A DNA stretch of 64,000 nt from Okeania sp. SIO2C9 (GTDB taxonomy: Bacteria; Cyanobacteriota; Cyanobacteriia; Cyanobacteriales; Microcoleaceae), in contig NZ_JAAHGO010000004.1 of NCBI RefSeq assembly GCF_010672455.1, forward strand, positions 62,001 through 126,000, given 5' to 3'. The translations under genes and the position numbers were made by a program. This document shows, piece after piece, positions 33,854-44,593 of the stretch. Each line of letters starts with the position of its first letter. Within the stretch, counting starts at the first letter, position 1. The notes beneath the pieces were generated by a model. That model searched no databases, was not told where the DNA came from, and saw nothing but the letters and a program-made list of their open reading frames with translations.

Positions 33854-34330
33854 CTAAATATACTCCCACTGCTGATAAGTAGCAGCTTGACCACATTGCT
33901 GTTGATTTTCATCTAGAAGATTCCAGACGGTAACATCTGAAATCCAAAACCGTTTACCTGTGCTGGAAATACGAATCCCCCGATAACCACTAATATAACC
34001 TTGAGTTTTTACCTGAGTCAGTAATAGCTGGCGATCTTCTCGCTCTGGAAGTTCTGCTGTCTGACGAGAAGGGGTATGAGTCAACTCCTCCCAACTCATT
34101 TCCCATAAATCCAACGCTTGCTGATTACCATAATTGAAGATCGGGTTTTCTTCCATACCGTGAGAAACAACAATAAATGGAGCTTCCCACAATGCTTGAG
34201 CAATAAATTTTGGGGTTCCATCTATATCCAGCAGAGTTTTACCAGTCCAATATTTATAGCTCCATAACAGTCTTTGAGTATGGCGAATTATAGTTTCTTG
34301 TTTCCAGGGATATAAGATATTTTCAGTCAT
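33854..34330 (-). CDS. MEKHLA (PAS-like) domain protein
   Basis: The 158-residue product consists almost wholly of a MEKHLA-type domain: HTQRLLWSYKYWTGKTLLD, FIAQALWEAPFIVVSHG, NPIFNYGNQQALDLWEMSWEEL and a final FWISDVTVWNLLDENQQQCGQAA. This domain resembles PAS and is known from plant HD-ZIP III proteins and from stand-alone proteins of cyanobacteria and algae. It probably binds a small ligand. It lies 102 bp downstream of the first tandem SDR on the same strand, so it may report on or act in the same pathway (inference). Confidence 0.8.
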   Translation of the reverse strand: MTENILYPWKQETIIRHTQRLLWSYKYWTGKTLLDIDGTPKFIAQALWEAPFIVVSHGMEENPIFNYGNQQALDLWEMSWEELTHTPSRQTAELPEREDRQLLLTQVKTQGYISGYRGIRISSTGKRFWISDVTVWNLLDENQQQCGQAATYQQWEYI

Positions 34331-34432
34331 CGATCATTTTTCAACAGTTAATCATCAAGAATTCTATCTTGATTTTCTACCTTTTAAATTAGATTGCTCT
34401 TAAAATTTTACCTGTTAATTTGAATCAATAAT

Positions 34433-35170
34433 TTATCTTGCTTTGTAATAAGGATGTATATCAATGCTACAACCACCATCTACAAAAAGAGTTTGCCCAG
34501 TAATATAACCTGCTTCTTCTGAAAAGAAAAAACCAATAGCTGCAGCTACTTCCGAAGGTTTACCAGCACGCTTCATTGGTATCCCACAAATTAAGCGCTT
34601 TTCCTCTTCACTTCCAGTTGGAAAAATGCGCCTACCAATTTCTGTTTCTATTCTCCCAGGAGCAACAGTATTAACAGTTATCCCACTTGACACAAACTCC
34701 AAAGCCCAAGTGCGAGCCAAACTAATCATTCCAGCTTTTGCTATTGTATAACTGGTGCGGTCTTGCGCTCCCAAAGCAGCAATACTAGAAATATTAACAA
34801 TACGACCGTACTTTTTCGCCTTCATTGATGGCACCACTGCTTGAAAAGTTTGTATCGCAACACGCAAATTTAAGTCAATAACTGCCTCGAAATTATCCAG
34901 TTTTACCTCCTCTAGTGGTTGTGGGTGTACTATTCCTACATTATTGACTATTCCATCAAAAGAATATTGCTTGGTTAAATTAGCCAGAGTTTCCGTTGTA
35001 GCATCGCGATCGCTCAGATCCACTGTAAAGAATTCACCAGGAAAGGTCTTTTCAGGAGTGTGGCGCGCCAGGCCAATTACTAGATGTCCTTTTTGGGCCA
35101 GATATTCTGCTGTAGAGAAACCTATTCCCCGACTTGCTCCTGTAATTAGGGTTATATGTTGTTGTCTCAT
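34433..35170 (-). CDS. FabG-like SDR reductase, tandem copy 2
   Basis: The 245-residue product starts MRQQHITLITGASRGIG at 35170; an upstream start would add 30 unrelated residues. Motifs are TGASRGIG, NNVG, SSIAALG with catalytic Ser, YTIAK (Tyr and Lys) and PGRIETEI. It shares its C-terminal CSIDIHPYYKAR and most of its sequence with the gene just upstream, also 245 residues, so the pair arose by tandem duplication. The copies differ mainly in the substrate loop (RIFPTGSEEEK against RYYYPSGSEVEK). Likely a keto reductase acting on an acyl or aminoketone intermediate; the substrate is inferred from context. Confidence 0.85.
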   Translation of the reverse strand: MRQQHITLITGASRGIGFSTAEYLAQKGHLVIGLARHTPEKTFPGEFFTVDLSDRDATTETLANLTKQYSFDGIVNNVGIVHPQPLEEVKLDNFEAVIDLNLRVAIQTFQAVVPSMKAKKYGRIVNISSIAALGAQDRTSYTIAKAGMISLARTWALEFVSSGITVNTVAPGRIETEIGRRIFPTGSEEEKRLICGIPMKRAGKPSEVAAAIGFFFSEEAGYITGQTLFVDGGCSIDIHPYYKAR

Positions 35171-35325
35171 TTTATTTGAGAGTAAAATAATATTTATCAA
35201 AATAATATGGGTCGCGTAACCCCGCCTTTTAAGGCGCAATATTTTTGGAGAGTTGCTCACCCATCCCCGTTACAAAAATAACTTCTGTACTGGCGAACGG
35301 CCGCCCCTACTGACTTCTGACTTTG

Positions 35326-36063
35326 TTATCTTGCCTTGTAATAAGGATGTACATCAATGCTACAACCACCATCTACAAAAAGAGTTTGCCCAGTAATATA
35401 ACCTGCTTCTTCTGAAAAGAAAAAGCCAATGCTTGCAGCTACCTCCGAAGGTTTACCAAAACGTCCTATTGGCACCCCACTTAAATAACGCTTTTCCACT
35501 TCACTTCCTGATGGGTAATAATATCTAAATAATTCTGTGTCAATAGGCCCAGGAGCAACAGCATTAACGGTTATCCCATTCTTGACCAACTCCAAAGCCC
35601 AAGTGCGAGTTAAACTAATCATTCCGGCCTTACTGACAGCATAAGTGCCACGGTTTTGCGCACCCAAAGCAGCAATACTGGAAAGATTAACAATACGACC
35701 CCACTTTTTTGCCTTCATTAATGGCACCACTGCTTGCACAGTTTGGATAGCAACACGCAAATTTAAGTCAATAACTGCATCGAAATTATCTAGTGTTATT
35801 TCTTCTAGTAGCTCTGGGTGTGCTATTCCTACATTATTTACCACTCCATCAAAAGCATACTGCTTGGTTAAATTAGCCAGAGTTTCTGTTGTGGCATCGC
35901 GATCGCTCAGATCGACTGTGACAAATTCACCAGGAAAGAGTTTTTCTGGAACGTGACGTGCTAGGCCAATTACTAGATGTCCTTTTTTTGCCAGGTATTC
36001 TGCCGTAGAGAAACCTATTCCCCGACTTGCACCAGTAATTAAGGTTATATGTTGTTGTGTCAT
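35326..36063 (-). CDS. FabG-like SDR reductase, tandem copy 1
   Basis: The 245-residue product has TGASRGIG (residues 10-17), VNNVGIAHP, LSSIAALG, YAVSKAG and PGPIDTEL, a complete classical SDR with Ser-Tyr-Lys. It diverges from the fatty acyl-AMP ligase gene, sharing a 395-bp intergenic region with it, and is followed by its tandem copy. FabG-like enzymes reduce 3-ketoacyl groups with NADPH. Beside a ligase and an alpha-oxoamine synthase a 3-ketosphinganine-reductase-like role is attractive but is inference. Confidence 0.87.
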   Translation of the reverse strand: MTQQHITLITGASRGIGFSTAEYLAKKGHLVIGLARHVPEKLFPGEFVTVDLSDRDATTETLANLTKQYAFDGVVNNVGIAHPELLEEITLDNFDAVIDLNLRVAIQTVQAVVPLMKAKKWGRIVNLSSIAALGAQNRGTYAVSKAGMISLTRTWALELVKNGITVNAVAPGPIDTELFRYYYPSGSEVEKRYLSGVPIGRFGKPSEVAASIGFFFSEEAGYITGQTLFVDGGCSIDVHPYYKAR

Positions 36064-36101
36064 TTTATTTCAGACTTAGAGGTTGTCTGAGAAGTCCCAT
36101 T

Positions 36102-36199
36102 TGCTACATCACTCGCCCCCTAAATCCCCCAATTTTGGGGGACTTTTAGATGCTACATCACTCGCCCCCTAAATCCCCCAATTTTGGGGGACTTTTAGA
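36102..36199. repeat. two tandem 49-bp repeats in divergent promoter region
   Basis: Two nearly identical units start TGCTACATCACTCG and contain CCCCCAATTTTGGGGG, a strong palindrome. They are followed by a third, inverted CCCCCAAAGTTGGGGGG block up to about 36246. They lie between the divergent SDR and ligase genes, so they may influence both promoters or act as terminators. Confidence 0.7.
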
Positions 36200-36458
36200 C
36201 GCAAATTGACTCTTGTCCCCCCCCAAAGTTGGGGGGCTAGGGGGGCAAAATTCAGTATCAAAAAACTTTTCAGATATCCTCTTAAATAATAGCTCTAATA
36301 TTAATAAATTGATATATTTTGGCAACTTTAGATCGATTTTTAATCAAAAGCCAACCCAGGGAAATATATCATAGATAACTAAAACCTCCTTCTTACTTCT
36401 TCCTTCCTTCTGCTATAAATTAATTGCCTGAACACTGGCTTTTTCTATTAAAAATCAA

Positions 36459-38216
36459 ATGAATATTGTAGATAAAAAAATTAAAACTTTAGTAGATTTA
36501 TTACAAAACAGAGCTATCGAAAACCCCAAACAAATAGCCTATACCTTTTTAGTAGACGGAGAAACAGAAACAACTAGCCTCACCTATCAACAACTAGAAC
36601 AACGTTCACGAGCGATCGCTGCCTATCTCCAATCAGTATGTCCACCTGGAGAACGTGCTTTACTCATCTATCAACCGGGACTAGAGTATATTAGCGCCTT
36701 TTTTGGATGTCTTTATGCTGGAATTATCGCAGTTCCCGCCTATCCCCCTAGACCAAATCGCTCCCTGGCCCGCATTCAAACAATTATTAGAGATACAGAG
36801 GCCAAAGTAGCTCTAACAACTAAATCTATCATCTCTACCCTAGAACGTCGTGCCTCGGAAACCCCAGAATTAAATAATTTAGGTTGGTTAGCCACTGACT
36901 ATATTCCAGACAATGTTGCAGAAAAATGGCTTGAACCTAATATCAACGAAAATACCCTTGCCTTCCTCCAATATACCTCCGGTTCCACAGCCACACCAAA
37001 AGGAGTAATGATTACTCACAATAACCTTTTGCATAACTCTAGTCTGATTCATCAATGTTTTGGACATTCTGTAGAAAGCAAAGGAGTAATCTGGCTGCCT
37101 CCTTACCACGATATGGGTTTAATTGGTGGGATAGTGCAACCTTTATATGGAGCATTTCCAGTAGTTTTAATGTCTCCGTTAATGTTTCTGCAAAGTCCGG
37201 TGCGCTGGCTACAAGCTATTTCTCAATATCAAGGGACTACCAGTGGTGGACCTAACTTTGCTTACGATTTGTGTGTCCGTAAAATTAAGGCCGAACAGAT
37301 GCAAAATTTGGATTTAAGTAGTTGGGAAGTGGCATTTAATGGTGCTGAACCTATTAGTGCCCAAGTTTTAGAAAGATTTGCCAGAACTTTTGAAGTTTGT
37401 GGTTTCCGTCGAGAAGCTTTTTATCCTTGTTACGGGATGGCAGAAGCTACTCTGATAATTTCTGGAGGCGATAAATTTGCCCCACCAGTTCAAACTACTA
37501 TTGCAACTAACGCATTAGAACAAAATCAGATTATTTCAACTACTTCAGAAACTGAAGCCACAAAAACATTAGTTGGTTGCGGTCAAGCTTTGCCAGACCA
37601 ACAGATTAAAATTGTCCATCCAGAAAAATTAACTCTCTGTACCGAGGGTGAAGTTGGAGAAATTTGGGTATCGGGGCCAAGTATTGCTGGGGGTTATTGG
37701 CGCAAACTAGAGGAAACAAAGCAGACTTTTGAGGCTTATTTACCTGAAGCTCCTGGAAAAGAGCCATTTATGAGAACTGGAGATTTAGGGTTTCTGGAGG
37801 GTGGGGAATTATTTGTGACGGGTCGTCTCAAGGATGTGATTATTATTAATGGTCGGAATCACTATCCCCAAGACATTGAATGGACAGTCGAACAAAGTCA
37901 TCCACTAATTAGACCAGGTTGTGTGGCCGGGTTTTCAGTGGAGGTTGCTGGAGAAGAACATCTAGTAGTAGTGGCTGAGGTGGAACGTAATTTTCGGGAA
38001 GTTGGTCGGCGTAATGGCAAATCTGGGACGGAAAATTCCAATTCTTCTCAGGATTTAATTAAGTCTATCCAACGAGTTATATCAAGAAATCACGACTTAC
38101 AGACTTATCGGGTATTATTGCTTAAGCCAGGAGCTATTCCTAAGACTTCTAGTGGTAAAGTTCAGCGCTATGCCTGTCGTGATGGTTTTTTGACAGGAAC
38201 TTTACCGAATAATTAA
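36459..38216 (+). CDS. fatty acyl-AMP ligase (FAAL)
   Basis: The 585-residue product has the adenylate-forming motif YTSGSTATPKGVMITH (about residues 172-187). It also has the FAAL hallmarks LPPYHDMGLIGGIVQPL and SGGPNFAYDLC, with YGMAEATL, TGDLGF and the A10 motif TSSGKVQRY near the end (Lys about 569). FAALs activate fatty acids as AMP esters and pass them to a carrier protein rather than to CoA. The obvious acceptor is the N-terminal carrier domain of the oxoamine synthase encoded downstream on the same strand. The 1.57 kb between them is filled with mobile repeats, so the genes may once have been adjacent. Confidence 0.9.
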   Translation: MNIVDKKIKTLVDLLQNRAIENPKQIAYTFLVDGETETTSLTYQQLEQRSRAIAAYLQSVCPPGERALLIYQPGLEYISAFFGCLYAGIIAVPAYPPRPNRSLARIQTIIRDTEAKVALTTKSIISTLERRASETPELNNLGWLATDYIPDNVAEKWLEPNINENTLAFLQYTSGSTATPKGVMITHNNLLHNSSLIHQCFGHSVESKGVIWLPPYHDMGLIGGIVQPLYGAFPVVLMSPLMFLQSPVRWLQAISQYQGTTSGGPNFAYDLCVRKIKAEQMQNLDLSSWEVAFNGAEPISAQVLERFARTFEVCGFRREAFYPCYGMAEATLIISGGDKFAPPVQTTIATNALEQNQIISTTSETEATKTLVGCGQALPDQQIKIVHPEKLTLCTEGEVGEIWVSGPSIAGGYWRKLEETKQTFEAYLPEAPGKEPFMRTGDLGFLEGGELFVTGRLKDVIIINGRNHYPQDIEWTVEQSHPLIRPGCVAGFSVEVAGEEHLVVVAEVERNFREVGRRNGKSGTENSNSSQDLIKSIQRVISRNHDLQTYRVLLLKPGAIPKTSSGKVQRYACRDGFLTGTLPNN

Positions 38217-38695
38217 TAATTAATAATTAATAATTAATAATTAAACAATTCTGGTTTAAAGCCGACCCTTTTAAGGGGAAAAAAGCGGCCGATCTTCGGA
38301 GCTTCCCCGTTGGGTGGGATGGCTCCGAAACCTGCGCCATATCCAATCGACCAAGAGAAAAGAATTGACATCCTCCCGACGTTGCCCATAGCGCGACAAC
38401 GCGGGATTCCTAAACCTTGCGGCTGCTGGACTTTCTGCTTCGCTCCGCACCTGCTTTTGAGGCCAAACCTCTTTCTGGTCTAAAGGCGCGCTCCACAGAC
38501 TGACACTGCTAGCCCAGCAGCCTAATTCTATTGAGAATAGCATACTATGTGTAAAAACCGCTCTTATTGATTGGTTTTCCCATCCCTGTGCTCCCCTTCG
38601 GGAGAGCGCGGGTCAAGGGCCAACGTTGAGATAAAATTTCCTTATATTCTATTCCGTAACGGTTAAAACCCGAGGTAATTATCAATTATCAATTA
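38205..38695. repeat. TTCGGTAA-family element, inverted, split by IS605-type end
   Basis: TTTACCGAATAATTAATAAT with AATTCTGGTTTAAAGCCG at the left, CCATATCCAATCGACCAAG up to about 38358, and after an interruption TTCCTTATATTCTATTCCG and GAGGTAATTATCAATTATC at the right. Outer parts match 8589-8863 inverted. The inserted 38362-38562 piece ends in the conserved hairpin of TnpB-type elements. Confidence 0.65.
38362..38562 (-). mobile_element. orphan IS200/IS605-type right end (possible omega RNA)
   Basis: On the minus strand the piece ends TTTAGGAATCCCGCG, loop, GGGAGGATGTCAA, the same tail as at 54685-54722. Upstream are GC-rich stems (GCGGAGCGAAGCAG, CCAGCAGCCGCAAGG). No tnpB frame is attached. 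A mobilisable remnant able to make a guide-like RNA is possible, but this is inference from layout. Confidence 0.6.
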
Positions 38696-38975
38696 ATGAA
38701 AGGTATAGCAGTCACCACTATAGTTAGGACATCGGGTAATTATGATGATTTATGACGCGAGCAAGATGCTCGCACTAATTGTCAAACACCAACCTGGCAG
38801 TTGCTATGTTTGAATAATTCAAGAAATGGGCATTGAAGAAGTGCTAAACACTACATATCTCTAACGTTATAGTTTTTGCTCGCTATATGTAGTATCTTTG
38901 CGTAAGTCTGATGATTTTTTGTGGACATCCTCATAGCTTAAATGACTGGTGGTGGTGCATTGTAATGGGGATCTA

Positions 38976-39226
38976 TTGTAGGGTTTGCTTATGGAAGTCT
39001 TTTAGTAGGAGACAGCTATACTGGAGACAAGAGACAGGAGGAACGGGGAATTATAGAGGAGGTAGGAGTTAAGTTTTGTTCCTTGATTTTTCTGTCATAC
39101 TCTTGCCTAAAATACGCTCAAAAATGAGCGTCAAGAGCTGATTCCCAGGCACTGCAATTCGACCCCAAAAAGCCTAAAGTCTTTATATGTCAATACTTTT
39201 AGATTAGATCGGTCACGCCCTATTGT
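38976..39226. mobile_element. MITE-like element with GGGTTTGCT ends
   Basis: About 250 bp from TTGTAGGGTTTGCTT to TCGGTCACGCCCTATTG, with GTCATACTCTTGCCTAAAATA and TTTATATGTCAATACTTTTA as in the other copies. The right end is decayed. Confidence 0.65.
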
Positions 39227-39789
39227 AATTATTTTGGTCAAGGACAACAGTAGTGGGAGCATCTTGCTCCCTTGTTCATATAGCGCTGTGCGCAGCTCCG
39301 GAAGGCAACAGCTCATCTGCTCCGGAAGGGGGAATAAAAAACCGATAATATAAGATTTTAGCTATTGGACATCTCCTGCAATTTGTAAATATGCCAGCGC
39401 ACATTGCTCATATCTTGCTGCCTTGCTCATATCTTGCTGCCTTGCTCATAGCTGCCTTGCTCATATCTTGCTCCCTATAACTTTTGACTTCTAACTTCTG
39501 ACTTCTGACTTGGGGACTTCTGACTTCCCCATAGCTCCTTCTTCCTACTTCGTATAAGATAATGGCACATAACCATCATGGCTTCCCCAGTGTTTTTTTG
39601 GGGTGGTCAATCAGTTAGAATAGTTGGCTATTTCAGGTAATTGTCACAAGTCAAAATCTCATCCAAGTAATTCGGAAACTTGATTTCTGATTTTCCAGGG
39701 GGATTTTTGACCCCAATATATGCTATTCCCTATAAGCTACTAGAAAAAACTGAGTTATGAGCAATTTTAATGTGGTGCAGGAGTGAACA
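39227..39789. other. spacer upstream of the oxoamine synthase gene
   Basis: Tandem copies of GCCTTGCTCATATCTTGCT lie at about 39390-39475 and CTTCTGACTTC repeats at about 39483-39530. A sequence near 39625-39690 (TTGGCTATTTCAGGTAATT) recurs at about 168-190. I cannot place the promoter with confidence. Confidence 0.5.
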
Positions 39790-41424
39790 ATGAAACTGTT
39801 GAACCAGCTTACGAATGAGAAAGACAGCCAAAATCTGTCTTTAGCAAACAACGATCCAGACCCTGCCTTGCAAGTCCCAAAATTATCCCCGTCTACAGAA
39901 ACTATTAAGTCCTGGTTGATATCCCAATTAGCCGAAAGACTAGAACTTGATATCCATGAGATAGATATTGAGCGGGACTTTATTGATTATGGCCTTAATT
40001 CAATTGAAGTGGTCAATCTTTCTGGAGAACTAGAAAATCTCCTCGGTCGGCGACTTCCTCCGACTCTGTTATTGGATTATCCCACTATTGAGGCTTTAGC
40101 TGAATATTTAGTGGAAGATACCACCCAGGATACAGGGCCAAATATTCACAAAAAATTAGAAGATGAGGCTGAGGTCCCAACTTCTAATCCAACTATTGAA
40201 ACTGAAGAAATTCCTTTAGAATATTATAACTTCGACCTGTACCCAGAATATCTGCAACTGCAAAAGCAAATGGCAGAAATTAATGCTACAGGTATTGGTA
40301 ACCCGTTTTTTATACCTCAAGAACGGATTAATAATAATACCACAGTTATCGATGGTAGGGAATTGGTTAATTATGCCACCTACAATTATTTAGGTATGTG
40401 TGGCGACTCCTCAGTATCTAATGCCGCGAAGGAAGCTATCGATCACTATGGTACTTCTGTTTCTGCCAGTAGGTTATTATCAGGAGAAAAGCCGTTACAT
40501 CAGGAATTGGAAAGAGAAATTGCTGATTTTATTGGCGTTGAGGATAGTATTGTTTATGTCGGGGGTCATGCTACTAATGTAACTACTATTAGTCATTTGT
40601 TTGGGCAAAATGATTTAATTCTCCATGACTCTTTGAGCCATAATAGTATTTTCCAAGGTTGTTTATTATCGGGAGCAACTATTATTGCTTTTCCTCATAA
40701 TGACTGGCAAGCTTTGGATAGGTTATTGAGCGATCGCCGTCATCGTTATAAACGGATACTTATTGCTATAGAAGGTGTATATAGTACAGATGGTGATATT
40801 CCAGATTTACCGAAATTTATTGAGATTAAACAACGTTACAAAGCTTTTCTGATGGTAGATGAGGCTCATTCTATCGGTACCATTGGCAAGCATGGTAGGG
40901 GTATTAGTGAGTATTTTGGGGTCAACCCCAATGATATTGATTTATGGATGGGTACTTTAAGTAAATCTTTTGCTAGTTGTGGTGGTTATATTGCTGGTAG
41001 CAAAGCATTAGTAGAATATCTTAAATATACTTCCCCAGGATTTGTCTATAGTGTCGGTATTTCCCCACCAGATGCAGCATCAGTATTAGCAGCTATTCGT
41101 TTGTTGAAGGCGGAACCTGAAAGGGTTACACAATTGCAAGAAAGGTCTCAACTATTTTTGGAGTCTGCTCGCGAACTAGGTTTGAATACTGGTATGAGTA
41201 AAGACTCTCCAGTGATACCTATTATTGTGGGTGAGTCTATTAAGTCTGTACTATTATCCCAAAATTTATTTAAGCGGGGAATTAATGTACCGTTTATGTT
41301 TTATCCTTCTGTGCCACACAATGCAGCTAGACTGCGCTTTTTTATTACCTGTAATCATACAGAGGAGCAAATTCGCTTCACTGTAGATGCTCTTGCGGAA
41401 GAGCTGAGGAAGATAGATATTTAG
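39790..41424 (+). CDS. acyl carrier protein fused to alpha-oxoamine synthase
   Basis: The 544-residue product has two parts. Residues about 35-110 are an acyl carrier domain with DYGLNSIEVVNLSG, where Ser71 takes the phosphopantetheine arm. After a Glu/Thr-rich linker, residues about 140-544 are a PLP-dependent oxoamine synthase: NYATYNYLG, SGEKPLHQELE, DSLSHNS, DEAHSIG and GTLSKSFASCGG with the PLP lysine at Lys392. The family (serine palmitoyltransferase, KBL, AONS, CqsA) joins an acyl thioester to an amino acid with loss of CO2. The DEAHSIG motif is closer to serine palmitoyltransferase-type enzymes than to AONS. The carrier domain in cis would bind the acyl chain supplied by the upstream FAAL. 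Confidence 0.88.
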   Translation: MKLLNQLTNEKDSQNLSLANNDPDPALQVPKLSPSTETIKSWLISQLAERLELDIHEIDIERDFIDYGLNSIEVVNLSGELENLLGRRLPPTLLLDYPTIEALAEYLVEDTTQDTGPNIHKKLEDEAEVPTSNPTIETEEIPLEYYNFDLYPEYLQLQKQMAEINATGIGNPFFIPQERINNNTTVIDGRELVNYATYNYLGMCGDSSVSNAAKEAIDHYGTSVSASRLLSGEKPLHQELEREIADFIGVEDSIVYVGGHATNVTTISHLFGQNDLILHDSLSHNSIFQGCLLSGATIIAFPHNDWQALDRLLSDRRHRYKRILIAIEGVYSTDGDIPDLPKFIEIKQRYKAFLMVDEAHSIGTIGKHGRGISEYFGVNPNDIDLWMGTLSKSFASCGGYIAGSKALVEYLKYTSPGFVYSVGISPPDAASVLAAIRLLKAEPERVTQLQERSQLFLESARELGLNTGMSKDSPVIPIIVGESIKSVLLSQNLFKRGINVPFMFYPSVPHNAARLRFFITCNHTEEQIRFTVDALAEELRKIDI

Positions 41425-41498
41425 TAGATAATGGCTAATAGCTAATCATAAATAATACAATTAGCTATTAGCTATTCGGATTGACAAATCAAAGTGAT

Positions 41499-42920
41499 TT
41501 AGCAAAGCAGTTGAGGAATATTTTGATCTCGATCTGTTGACTCAAATTGTTGATTATTTTTGATTATCTGCCCCAAAATTTTTGCCATAATATCAGGTTG
41601 AAACAGAATTTTTGGAGGTTGAGTCAGTTGCATGACTGTTATATATTTTTGATAAACTTCCGGGTGCTCTACTGAAAGTCGCAATACCTGGTCTAAATAT
41701 TTCTGTATTAATCTTGTCATCCAGTCTGGTTTAGCACCTTCTGTACCTGGCCAACGTAAGTCTTCCGCAGTTGCCATTAACCAAGGCATAGAATTTACTT
41801 GAGCAAGTTGCTTCTGGAAATACTTGCTTAAACCTTTAAGACTGGGATTACTTTGCAAGCACTGGTCGAGAGCGATCGCTCCCAAAGCAGCTACAGTCAT
41901 ACCTTGACCATAAACAGGATTAAAGCAACATACTGCATCACCTATAGCAACAATACCATCTGGTAGTCTTGATAATTGCTCGTAATGACTGAGGCGATTT
42001 TCTGTACGTCGGTATCCATAGACAGGGGAAATGGGTTGAGCATCTTTAATAAATTCGTAGACAATGGGATTTCGCAAACTACGGGCAAATTCTAGGAAAC
42101 CAACTTCATCAGTAGGAGGATAATCTTTGTTGATACCATAAAGAGTAGTCACCCAAAAATTGTTTTCCACCGAATAAATTATCCCCGCACGTTGATCATT
42201 GGGTGGCTTTGTTGCTACTGCTAATACTTTCCAATCTGTCTGAAAACCCTCTGGGCACTTATACCATCGACTACTATAGCCCAAAAAAGAATTTATTACT
42301 GTTTCTTCAGGAGCTTGATAACCTAAAGCAGTTAACCATTTAGGTAGAGAGGAATTTCGCCCACTAGTATCAACAACTAAGTCAGCAGTTAAATCTTGTT
42401 CGTGAGAATTTGACTTTATTCGTACTCCTGTCACTCTGGAGTTACTAACGTTGCTGAGTAAGTTTTTTACCTGAGTGCTTTCTAGGAATTGCACGCTGTA
42501 ATCAGCAGTTAATTGACGGCGTATTCCCCACTCTAATAGATGGCGACTACAAAGACAACTTTTTATATCGGAACGAAACCGAGGTTGCCAACCAAATAAA
42601 TTATACCATGGAAATTCTGCTGCCCAATCAATTTTTAGGGAACCAGAAGTTTCCAAATCTTCGACTAAACCAGGAAACAGTTGCTCTAAAATTTGTTGAC
42701 CTTTGGATAATAGTACATGGACATGATGGCTTTGAGCTACTCCTGGCCGAAATTGGGGATGTTCGGGAAAGCGATCGCGTTCTACTATTGTTACTTGCTG
42801 AAAATGGTTTGTTAATACTCGTCCTGCTAATAACCCTGCGATACTACCACCAATTACTATTGCATGGTTACCTTTTTTAGGTTGTTGCTGTGAAATATTT
42901 ATTTTGTCTGAGTTGATCAT
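41499..42920 (-). CDS. FAD-dependent oxidoreductase/epoxidase-like
   Basis: From the ATG at 42920 the product has 473 residues; a TTG nine codons upstream is the only other start. Motifs are HAIVIGGSIAGLLAGRVL (FAD Rossmann), DTSGRNSSLPKW and the GDAVCCFNPVYGQGMTVAALG block that binds ribityl phosphate. The family includes halogenase-like and polyether-epoxidase-like flavoenzymes; lack of an obvious WxWxIP motif argues against a tryptophan halogenase. It converges on the oxoamine synthase gene with only 74 bp between, so a role in the same pathway (hydroxylation or desaturation of the lipid) is possible. Confidence 0.8.
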   Translation of the reverse strand: MINSDKINISQQQPKKGNHAIVIGGSIAGLLAGRVLTNHFQQVTIVERDRFPEHPQFRPGVAQSHHVHVLLSKGQQILEQLFPGLVEDLETSGSLKIDWAAEFPWYNLFGWQPRFRSDIKSCLCSRHLLEWGIRRQLTADYSVQFLESTQVKNLLSNVSNSRVTGVRIKSNSHEQDLTADLVVDTSGRNSSLPKWLTALGYQAPEETVINSFLGYSSRWYKCPEGFQTDWKVLAVATKPPNDQRAGIIYSVENNFWVTTLYGINKDYPPTDEVGFLEFARSLRNPIVYEFIKDAQPISPVYGYRRTENRLSHYEQLSRLPDGIVAIGDAVCCFNPVYGQGMTVAALGAIALDQCLQSNPSLKGLSKYFQKQLAQVNSMPWLMATAEDLRWPGTEGAKPDWMTRLIQKYLDQVLRLSVEHPEVYQKYITVMQLTQPPKILFQPDIMAKILGQIIKNNQQFESTDRDQNIPQLLC

Positions 42921-43237: not shown

Positions 43238-44593
43238 CTAAATTATCTCATCATTTTGCAGAGTCTGATTTCTAATTCTTGTTGGTAAAGATAAGAAACT
43301 CCAGGCAGATTTTTCTTCAATTTCATTAGTTGGCGGAGCAAGCACAATTAAACCATCAGGAATACATTTAATCTCAACTGGAGTAGTGCCAATAATTTCA
43401 CCGTCAAGTACAACTTTTTGCGGTGGTTCTGTACTAACTTTTACCTGCTTTGTTCGCAAACCAATAGTATCTTGATGTTGAGCAGGAGTTTTAAATATAG
43501 CTGACCCGAACATTCTAACTACAGTGTTAACAGCTTGCAGTCTACTATTGGAGGTAATAATCATTACTTCTAATAAACCATCATTCATAATTACTTCTCC
43601 CAAACCTTGAGCTAAAACTGATGTTGGTGGTGCTGCATTGGCAATAGTTATTGCTCCTGCTTCAAAAGTTTTGGTAACACCGTCAATTTCTATTTCAACA
43701 TCAAAAAGTTGTTGTTCGTTTAATTGTTGCCAACCTGCCATCATATAGGCAAGCACTCCCCAACGATTTTTTGCTTCTCGATCTGCTCTCTCTACAGTTT
43801 CTGCTTCATACCCCACTCCTGCTAATAAAATCATGGTACGCTCATTGCACTGACCAACATCTATTGTACGAATTTTGCCTGCTAATATGACATCACAAGC
43901 ACTTCTAATTGGTGTAATGCCGGGAATTCCTAAAGCCATCGCAAAAGCATTGGCAGTACCTCTAGGAATTACACCGAGAGGAATACCTGTATTGACTAAT
44001 TCTCCAGCAACGGCAGAAACAGTGCCATCACCGCCAGAAGCAATAATGATATCTGCTTGTTTAGCGATCGCTACTTTTGTCAATTCTTCTGCTGTTTGCT
44101 CTATAGTGGTTTCGTGTATATGTAAATGCAGATGAGGTTCGAGAAGTGACTTAATTAATGATAATTCTTGTTGAGTATTGCCCTGGCCAGATATAGGGTT
44201 GAATATGAGGTGGGCAACAGTAGCTTGAATGAAACTATTAATAATTGCTTCGGCAGTGGCAATATTAATTGCAATGGGAACATTATGTACCTGACAAATA
44301 CGCAGTAATAATTTGAGGTCTGGTTCATAAGATTGAGAAAATAGGTAGTCTACTAAACAAATAACAGCAATAATATTTCCTGTGGCTATTTCTGCTGCTA
44401 TTTGAGTATCTCCTCCCAAGGAAATTGGTAATACAGAGTTTATTTCTATAGCTGCTTCTTGTAAAAGATATTGAGCAGTGTCTTCTGGTGCAACTAATTT
44501 ATAGCGAGATAGCACAACTTGATGTTTTTTGACAAATTCAACTAAGTTGTCTTTTTTGCTGTCATAAGCAAGTAAAGCAATAGTATTTGCCAT
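43238..44593 (-). CDS. methylglyoxal synthase/diacylglycerol-kinase-like fusion
   Basis: The product has 451 residues. Residues 1-120 resemble methylglyoxal synthase (IALLAYDSKKDNLVEFV and LGGDTQIAAEI, with the conserved GGDxQ, where Asp is catalytic). Residues about 125-430 are a DAGK_cat/YegS-type lipid kinase: FNPISGQGN, ASGGDGTVSAVAGELV, PRGTANAFAMALGIP and DGLLEVMII. The fusion is known in cyanobacteria. The kinase part would phosphorylate a lipid such as diacylglycerol, or a sphingoid-like base. That is notable beside a possible aminolipid cluster, though linkage may be chance. The synthase part would turn dihydroxyacetone phosphate into methylglyoxal. Confidence 0.85.
   Translation of the reverse strand: MANTIALLAYDSKKDNLVEFVKKHQVVLSRYKLVAPEDTAQYLLQEAAIEINSVLPISLGGDTQIAAEIATGNIIAVICLVDYLFSQSYEPDLKLLLRICQVHNVPIAINIATAEAIINSFIQATVAHLIFNPISGQGNTQQELSLIKSLLEPHLHLHIHETTIEQTAEELTKVAIAKQADIIIASGGDGTVSAVAGELVNTGIPLGVIPRGTANAFAMALGIPGITPIRSACDVILAGKIRTIDVGQCNERTMILLAGVGYEAETVERADREAKNRWGVLAYMMAGWQQLNEQQLFDVEIEIDGVTKTFEAGAITIANAAPPTSVLAQGLGEVIMNDGLLEVMIITSNSRLQAVNTVVRMFGSAIFKTPAQHQDTIGLRTKQVKVSTEPPQKVVLDGEIIGTTPVEIKCIPDGLIVLAPPTNEIEEKSAWSFLSLPTRIRNQTLQNDEII

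Follow-up and report, generated by a model that had tools for sequence, protein, structure and literature searches.

Described systems and the Okeania locus

The supply of serine palmitoyltransferase (SPT) by an acyl carrier protein (ACP) is a known principle: in Rhodobacteria, SPT has an ACP of its own and a synthetase of its own to load it (AasR-AcpR-SPT), an arrangement shown to work according to the accessible text of the report (PMC9386255). Synthases with SPT activity that are linked to a polyketide synthase (PKS) are known as well, as in the available description of the alpha-oxoamine synthase (AOS) system PfSgaAB of Pseudomonas fluorescens MYb115 (PMC12134224). For cyanobacteria, the accessible part of Belton et al. 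2022 counts just two credited sphingolipids by that year, lacking a genetic basis, and names Moorea producens LYNGBM3L_27370 (571 aa) as a candidate AOS worth testing (PMC8895605). In this study, a window of 64,000 nucleotides (the whole stretch of DNA analyzed) from the 10.9-Mb genome of Okeania sp. SIO2C9, located on contig C252 of our numbering, was examined; within its region 33854-42920, the plus strand encodes a fatty acyl-AMP ligase (FAAL, here FAAL_a; 36459-38216) and a 544-aa fusion of an ACP with an AOS (ACP-AOS; 39790-41424). Together with a reductase resembling TSC10 (3-ketodihydrosphingosine reductase) and encoded on another contig (C13:144196-144987), these proteins are best explained as a route to a sphingoid base, followed by less certain steps encoded on contig C24; we regard this explanation as fairly probable.

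As in the AasR-AcpR-SPT systems of Caulobacter and E. coli BL21, genes of an acyl-ACP synthetase, an ACP and a synthase lie together in the window; in E. coli BL21, the synthetase grouped with the ACP and SPT genes is annotated as a fatty acyl-AMP ligase. Unlike in these systems, the ACP and synthase of Okeania form one protein, the synthase comes from another AOS clade (p 0.0123 in the topology test described below) and the reductase is TSC10-like and unlinked, whereas the AasR-AcpR-SPT operon has an epimerase-like gene instead. Eukaryotic SPT (SPTLC2/LCB2a) is the nearest characterized synthase in our tree and KDSR (TSC10) is the best PDB match of the reductase, but the window enzyme is bacterial and ACP-fused, and its acyl donor is presumably ACP-bound rather than CoA-bound. 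PfSgaAB, as far as its accessible description goes, resembles the Okeania system in pairing an oxoamine synthase with a protein supplying the acyl chain; its PKS builds that chain, whereas the FAAL would load an existing fatty acid. A further comparison is offered by Sinorhizobium meliloti pSymB (locus L223:4337-14100), where a PKS or fatty acid synthase (FAS) with the domain order KS-AT-DH-ER-KR is followed by an AOS of the window's clade and a short-chain dehydrogenase/reductase (SDR) 39% identical to the TSC10-like reductase. Unlike the window, this locus has the PKS/FAS and neighbouring capsule genes, with no FAAL among the annotated genes shown; we take it to resemble rkpA-rkpG-rkpH, and it points to a capsule lipid of rhizobia that may be sphingoid-like.

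Judging from size and genus, the 577-aa Moorena fusion found in this study (locus L071) very probably has its orthologue in LYNGBM3L_27370. The first pointer to the Moorea AOS gene belongs to Belton et al., in whose accessible text no FAAL, reductase or other pathway genes are described (PMC8895605). No description of the pathway considered here was found in searches of open-licence PMC papers; as far as searched, the cyanobacterial carrier-synthase fusion, the AOS clade, its TSC10-like partner and the dispersed gene set are new.

Domains and phylogeny of the synthase

The carrier part of the fusion is a PP-binding domain (PF00550, 59 bits) at residues 42-107 (39913-40110, plus strand), with the DxGxxS motif at residues 66-71 (DYGLNS) and Ser71 as the phosphopantetheine site. 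The catalytic domain (Aminotran_1_2, PF00155, 152 bits) occupies residues 191-535 (40360-41394, plus strand). Its alignment with human, plant and bacterial SPT revealed that the stacking His284, Asp357 and His360 (DEAHS), the pyridoxal 5'-phosphate (PLP) lysine Lys392 (in GTLSKS) and the conserved Arg516 are kept, residues that are mostly common to oxoamine synthases generally and hence not SPT-specific; a fold by itself would not tell SPT from other AOS enzymes either. Orthologues of the fusion in 12 related genomes share 87-97% identity across 540-544 of its 544 residues. The top PDB matches of the AOS are human and plant SPT2 and S. multivorum SPT (257-236 bits), and lower matches include Sphingomonas-type SPT chains (195-213 bits), ALAS (175), AONS (173) and cysteate acyltransferase (154).

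For phylogenetic analysis, 91 AOS domains were found, of which 88 exceeded 300 residues, and 13 near-duplicates or second genome copies were removed by hand; the resulting 75 domains, the window sequence and four PDB segments form an 80-row tree. A second, 51-row tree consists of a hand-picked subset and nine sequences from plasmid records, with more references. In the 80-row and 51-row trees, respectively, the window's clade joins eukaryotic SPT2 with support of 99/96 and 100/96, and bacterial SPTs form a separate group (100/97 and 99/95) that excludes the window AOS. Cyanobacterial BioF-like proteins, including L004, which is encoded by a separate gene of the window's genome, constitute a third group. 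Approximately unbiased (AU) tests, performed on groups picked after seeing a tree, rejected the union of the window's clade with BioF (p 0.00015), its union with bacterial SPT without eukaryotic SPT (p 0.0123) and a grouping of eukaryotic with bacterial SPT without the window's clade (p 0.0315). The firm clustering with AONS that the first-pass annotation had named as grounds for refutation was thus not observed.

Association of FAAL, carrier and synthase

The FAAL combines an AMP-binding domain (229 bits in Pfam) with a DIP2-like C-terminal domain. Its best PDB match is 7r7g (1.4e-195), with the fatty acyl-adenylate ligase 3pbk at 3.3e-83, and it is nearest to FAALs and not to acyl-CoA ligases: all 15 PDB sequences matched at E<=1e-60 are FAAL-type, part of them as we take them to be and the rest by name. 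NCBIfam fatty-acid--AMP ligase models also top its single-domain matches, though below their cut-offs. Hallmarks of such enzymes, as given in the accessible parts of two reports, are a FAAL-specific insertion and a CoA-rejecting pocket (PMC8460268, PMC11837247). Used as a query, the window FAAL hit only 5 places at E<=1e-60 in the whole genome, so the chance of its lying beside ACP-AOS by accident is, by a rough estimate, well under 1%.

A peptide-pattern search yielded 56 loci encoding ACP-AOS relatives, 37 of them cyanobacterial, and more loci were obtained from whole genomes. The 56 loci are not independent, as 13 come from Okeania, Trichodesmium, Hydrocoleum or a near relative; their gene calls are mechanical open reading frames, and 13 large or accessory proteins, some first labelled by eye, were checked with Pfam. 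A FAAL was located within 6 kb of the AOS, or fused to it, in 28 of the 37 cyanobacterial loci (34/56 overall), and the co-location of FAAL and carrier-oxoamine fusion seen in the window, which the first-pass annotation would have counted as refuted if never met elsewhere, recurs widely. Within the same distance in the cyanobacterial loci, a carrier protein was present 35 times, a B12-radical SAM protein 12, OlsC-like genes and family-4 glycosyltransferase (GT4) genes 6 each, the TSC10-like reductase 5 and a GMC oxidoreductase 3 times. The fusion state varies: ACP and AOS form a single protein in Okeania, Trichodesmium and Moorena and are encoded by neighbouring genes in, among others, Planktothrix and Arthrospira; Richelia-type genomes unite FAAL, ACP and AOS in one protein, and two Pirellulales join FAAL and AOS in a single protein. 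Given these proximity counts and varying fusion states, FAAL, carrier and AOS seem to function as a unit.

The FAAL and ACP-AOS genes of the window are separated by 1.57 kb (38217-39789), in which no gene was recognized and short repeats are visible by eye; in several relatives this gap is shorter (about 0.3-0.6 kb). The B12-binding radical SAM protein, with a DUF4070 domain where this was tested (L071), was found near the AOS in loci L070-L073, L080, L081, L083-L087 and L090, and C-methylation of a lipid chain is a possible role for it. Outside cyanobacteria, two genomes of Legionella (L100 and L103) have a FAAL adjoining an AOS protein of about 510-520 aa that belongs to the window's clade.

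A TSC10-like reductase co-occurring with the synthase

The SDR encoded at C13:144196-144987 has TSC10 as its best PDB match (8jat, 5.5e-33; next match 1.9e-25), and scores 129 bits against it, versus 37 and 27 bits for SDR1 and SDR2, the two SDRs of the window. It is 62.5% identical to the Richelia copy; in Richelia, the gene directly after FAAL-ACP-AOS is an SDR whose sole PDB match at E<=1e-25 is TSC10. A similar SDR with TSC10 as the best PDB match adjoins the AOS in Calothrix, and a TSC10-like reductase is also present within the Moorena cluster and adjoins the AOS in genome G283. Of 17 genomes selected as AOS carriers, 16 encode a reductase copy at 56-66% identity (E<=1e-94), and the remaining one, the fragmented assembly G055, gave a weak match only.

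Co-occurrence was analyzed in 386 genomes sampled evenly across the cyanobacterial phylum, with thresholds differing between AOS (1e-110) and reductase (1e-45). This revealed the AOS in 19 and the reductase in 17 genomes, the latter in 13 of 19 AOS-positive versus 4 of 367 AOS-negative ones, with neither gene in 363 (Fisher's test, 1.1e-16, which treats related genomes as independent). The 13 genomes with both genes span 8 families, and the pattern recurs across these. In three of the four reductase-only genomes, the reductase immediately follows a FAAL-ACP-AOS fusion that is divergent (31-32% identity) and groups with bacterial SPTs in the trees. We take the presence of the same kind of reductase beside two SPT-like clades as the strongest argument that both would make a 3-ketosphinganine-type product. 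The three loci concerned (L184-L186, genus g23; G117, G142 and G265) encode, in a compact run, a FAAL-ACP-SPT fusion, the TSC10-like reductase, a second FAAL and a GT4. As their synthase falls among the bacterial SPTs, cyanobacteria may have acquired SPT-type synthases on two or more occasions.

Further candidate genes

The genes for the remaining likely steps are scattered over the window's genome. OlsC-like and GMC oxidoreductase genes lie near C24:285 kb, and genes for an MFS transporter, a GT4 and a second FAAL (FAAL_b) at C24:227-237 kb, all with Pfam-confirmed families; G042, a second Okeania genome, and the Trichodesmium genome G054 also have both groups. In Moorena, a single region holds FAAL, SDR, GMC oxidoreductase, OlsC-like hydroxylase, a second FAAL, ACP-AOS, radical SAM and the TSC10-like reductase. 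OlsC-like genes, named only for their similarity (the Arthrospira copy reaches 264 of 450 bits), co-occur with the AOS more loosely (8/19 AOS-positive versus 8/367 AOS-negative genomes), and no GT4 match was found in Arthrospira G010. PF04339, considered as a dedicated ceramide synthase, proved uninformative, being present in 20 of 20 genomes, six of them without the AOS.

Proposed pathway and reported lipids

The genes, domains, residues, phylogeny and co-occurrence described above are direct observations, from which we infer every reaction that follows. The FAAL would activate a long-chain fatty acid as acyl-AMP and load it onto Ser71 of the ACP domain. The AOS domain, with its PLP lysine Lys392, would then condense the ACP-bound acyl chain with an amino acid, most likely L-serine, releasing CO2 and yielding a 3-ketosphinganine-type base, which the C13 reductase would turn into an amino alcohol. 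Less certain are the steps assigned to C24, in which FAAL_b may activate an amide-linked fatty acid, the OlsC-like oxygenase may 2-hydroxylate the acyl chain and the GT4 may attach a sugar to give a glycosylceramide-like lipid. On the strength of their gene content, Okeania and relatives such as Trichodesmium, Arthrospira and Moorena are probable producers of sphingolipid-like lipids. A more far-reaching proposal is that Okeania, Trichodesmium, Planktothrix, Arthrospira and Moorena run a complete glycosphingolipid pathway (encoded at four loci in Okeania) begun by an ACP-fused or ACP-paired synthase, that the clade of this synthase is the nearest sampled bacterial relative of eukaryotic SPT, and that the same AOS plus TSC10-like pair also builds a rhizobial capsule lipid; taken as a whole, this is put forward tentatively and seems rather doubtful.

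Both Moorena and Arthrospira, whose genomes have the AOS cluster, have been linked to sphingolipids. The accessible text on mooreaside A, a cerebroside from Moorea producens, describes a glucosylceramide whose base is C17 and whose C25 acyl chain is non-hydroxy (PMC6272925), and ceramide phosphoinositols were reported from Arthrospira in the available part of another study (PMC11051859). In Nostoc punctiforme, no sphingolipids were seen, according to the accessible text of PMC8895605, and only a BioF-like AOS was found by us, consistent with the proposed model.

Evidence against the proposal and alternative explanations

Several observations weigh against a sphingoid-base route. The chemical reports are suggestive only: the Moorea sample was hand-collected in the Red Sea, as stated in the accessible text (PMC6272925), and the word 'axenic' is absent from the Arthrospira paper (PMC11051859), so eukaryotic contamination may possibly lie behind these lipids; moreover, the acyl chain of mooreaside A is described as non-hydroxy. 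Regarding the synthase, S. paucimobilis SPT (198 bits) scores no better than Kbl (210) among the PDB matches, the NCBIfam SPT models score below their cut-offs (321/640, 300/500 and 246/670 bits) and the top NCBIfam model is TIGR00858 (BioF; 354 bits, below its cut-off of 426). A clade of all SPTs with the window's clade is absent from the best tree, though it was not rejected (p 0.104), and the trees, built without CAT, ALAS, CqsA and SgaB, are unrooted and have some long branches. No assay was found for any enzyme that they place in the window's AOS clade. Nine of the 37 cyanobacterial loci lack a FAAL near the AOS, at least two of these (L067 and L073) being on short contigs. The Okeania reductase is unlinked, and in locus L158 no query protein besides the reductase was matched; the AOS-negative genome G176 has the reductase, with a stop inside the match, alongside a BioF-like AOS only. 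No N-acyltransferase was found, PF04339 being the sole candidate tried. Finally, 6 of the 19 AOS-positive genomes lack the TSC10-like reductase, and their AOS genes have other partners: Pfam-recognized PKSs in L136 (G305) and L138 (G291), the latter resembled by G289; a FAAL-AOS fusion with an acyl-CoA dehydrogenase between the two in L134 (G431); a large KR-containing protein adjoining the AOS in L141 (G082); and a sulfotransferase and an SDR unlike TSC10 in L145 (G062). Given these other partners, some members of the clade probably have a different product. The FAAL-ACP-AOS fusion of L145 also lies near acyl-CoA dehydrogenase-like and bile-acid/sodium symporter-like genes, and the product of this locus is probably different and possibly sulfated.

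The choice of amino acid cannot be read from sequence, and the partners just listed (PKS, acyl-CoA dehydrogenase and sulfotransferase), along with the six genomes without the reductase and the SDR of L145, which best matches other dehydrogenases, leave some room for an AOS that uses glycine, alanine or cysteate and forms another alpha-aminoketone, for example a 1-deoxy-sphingoid, capnine-like or secondary-metabolite precursor. We nevertheless consider a substrate other than serine unlikely, as the co-occurring TSC10-like reductase also accompanies an SPT-clade enzyme and, for cysteate in particular, cysteate acyltransferase scores 154 bits versus 257 for SPT2. A weaker sign is the Ser that precedes the conserved Arg, as in 4 of 5 aligned SPTs (Thr in the human enzyme), Kbl having Val; its value for serine use is lessened by the BioF-like L004, which has Ser at the same place. 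It seems less plausible still, and quite improbable, that the pair provides a surface polysaccharide with its lipid anchor, as the Sinorhizobium AOS and SDR may do, and does not make a free membrane sphingolipid. AOSs of the same clade do lie beside surface-polysaccharide genes in S. meliloti, Pseudomonas TMW and Paraburkholderia, and the identity of the S. meliloti SDR to the TSC10-like reductase was mentioned above; these three AOSs, however, follow a multidomain PKS/FAS that is absent at the window, where no polysaccharide gene was recognized among the ten genes given to Pfam, the others not being annotated.

The first-pass annotation had viewed six genes of region 33854-42920 as one set, with the lipid kinase next door as a possible later step. 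Its central part, a FAAL-loaded carrier and an oxoamine synthase working towards a sphingoid-type amino alcohol, is retained here; the set as such is not. That the six genes act together, with the SDR pair reducing the ketone and the FAD enzyme or the kinase finishing the product, would agree with the synteny held in several Okeania and partly in Trichodesmium genomes; it is very unlikely in view of the opposite strands, the FabG-like and only weakly TSC10-like SDRs, the failure to find SDR1-type genes near the AOS in Moorena, Planktothrix, Arthrospira and some close kin, and the far better reductase on C13. Least credible of all is a biotin-pathway BioF or a Kbl-like enzyme standing beside the FAAL by chance: TIGR00858 heads the NCBIfam matches, but its shortfall of the cut-off and the AU result for BioF led us to discard BioF as an identity of the AOS, the genome has L004 as its separate BioF-like gene, and both the ACP fusion and the FAAL partner are conserved.

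Other genes of the region

All six genes of the region are open reading frames at the positions first assigned to them, and their Pfam families were confirmed. Besides FAAL and ACP-AOS on the plus strand, these are, on the minus strand, a MEKHLA protein (33854-34330; 195 bits), the tandem FabG/PRK07577-like pair SDR2 (34433-35170) and SDR1 (35326-36063), and an FAD oxidoreductase (41499-42920); the neighbouring MGS/DAGK-like lipid kinase, also assigned to a Pfam family, is at 43238-44593 on the minus strand. Since they lie on opposite strands, the six genes do not form one operon.

SDR1 and SDR2 are 81% identical at the protein level, and their tandem (34433-36063) is apparently a duplication, of which several relatives show fewer copies or none. 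FabG is the best PDB match of SDR1, with TSC10 not among the 60 matches shown. Beside the FAAL of L064, L066 and L069, loci that all have MEKHLA, no SDR could be found, and the longest SDR reading frame in T. erythraeum (L092) is 89 aa. The pair was rejected as ketoreductase on account of its FabG-like character, its low TSC10 scores and the failure to find it beside the FAAL of several close relatives; judged by these comparisons, it is probably not the enzyme reducing the 3-keto group, as had been supposed, and is a weak candidate only for any pathway role. MEKHLA, SDR1, the FAD oxidoreductase and the lipid kinase occur near the AOS in 7, 6, 4 and 3 of the 37 cyanobacterial loci, respectively, all from Okeania, Trichodesmium or Hydrocoleum, and constitute a local gene order that Okeania shares with its closest relatives. 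MEKHLA, the FAD oxidoreductase and the kinase were accordingly dropped as pathway parts, including the later step once ascribed to the kinase.

Significance

The analysis provides a specific, testable gene set, with the AOS in 19 of the 386 sampled cyanobacterial genomes and the AOS plus reductase in 13. The genera Okeania, Trichodesmium, Planktothrix, Arthrospira and Moorena include bloom-forming and edible cyanobacteria. If the proposed route is true, ACP-dependent sphingolipid synthesis would extend to ecologically and nutritionally important cyanobacteria, its genes would serve as markers for sphingolipid producers in marine metagenomes, and the finding would bear on the origin of eukaryotic SPT and KDSR.

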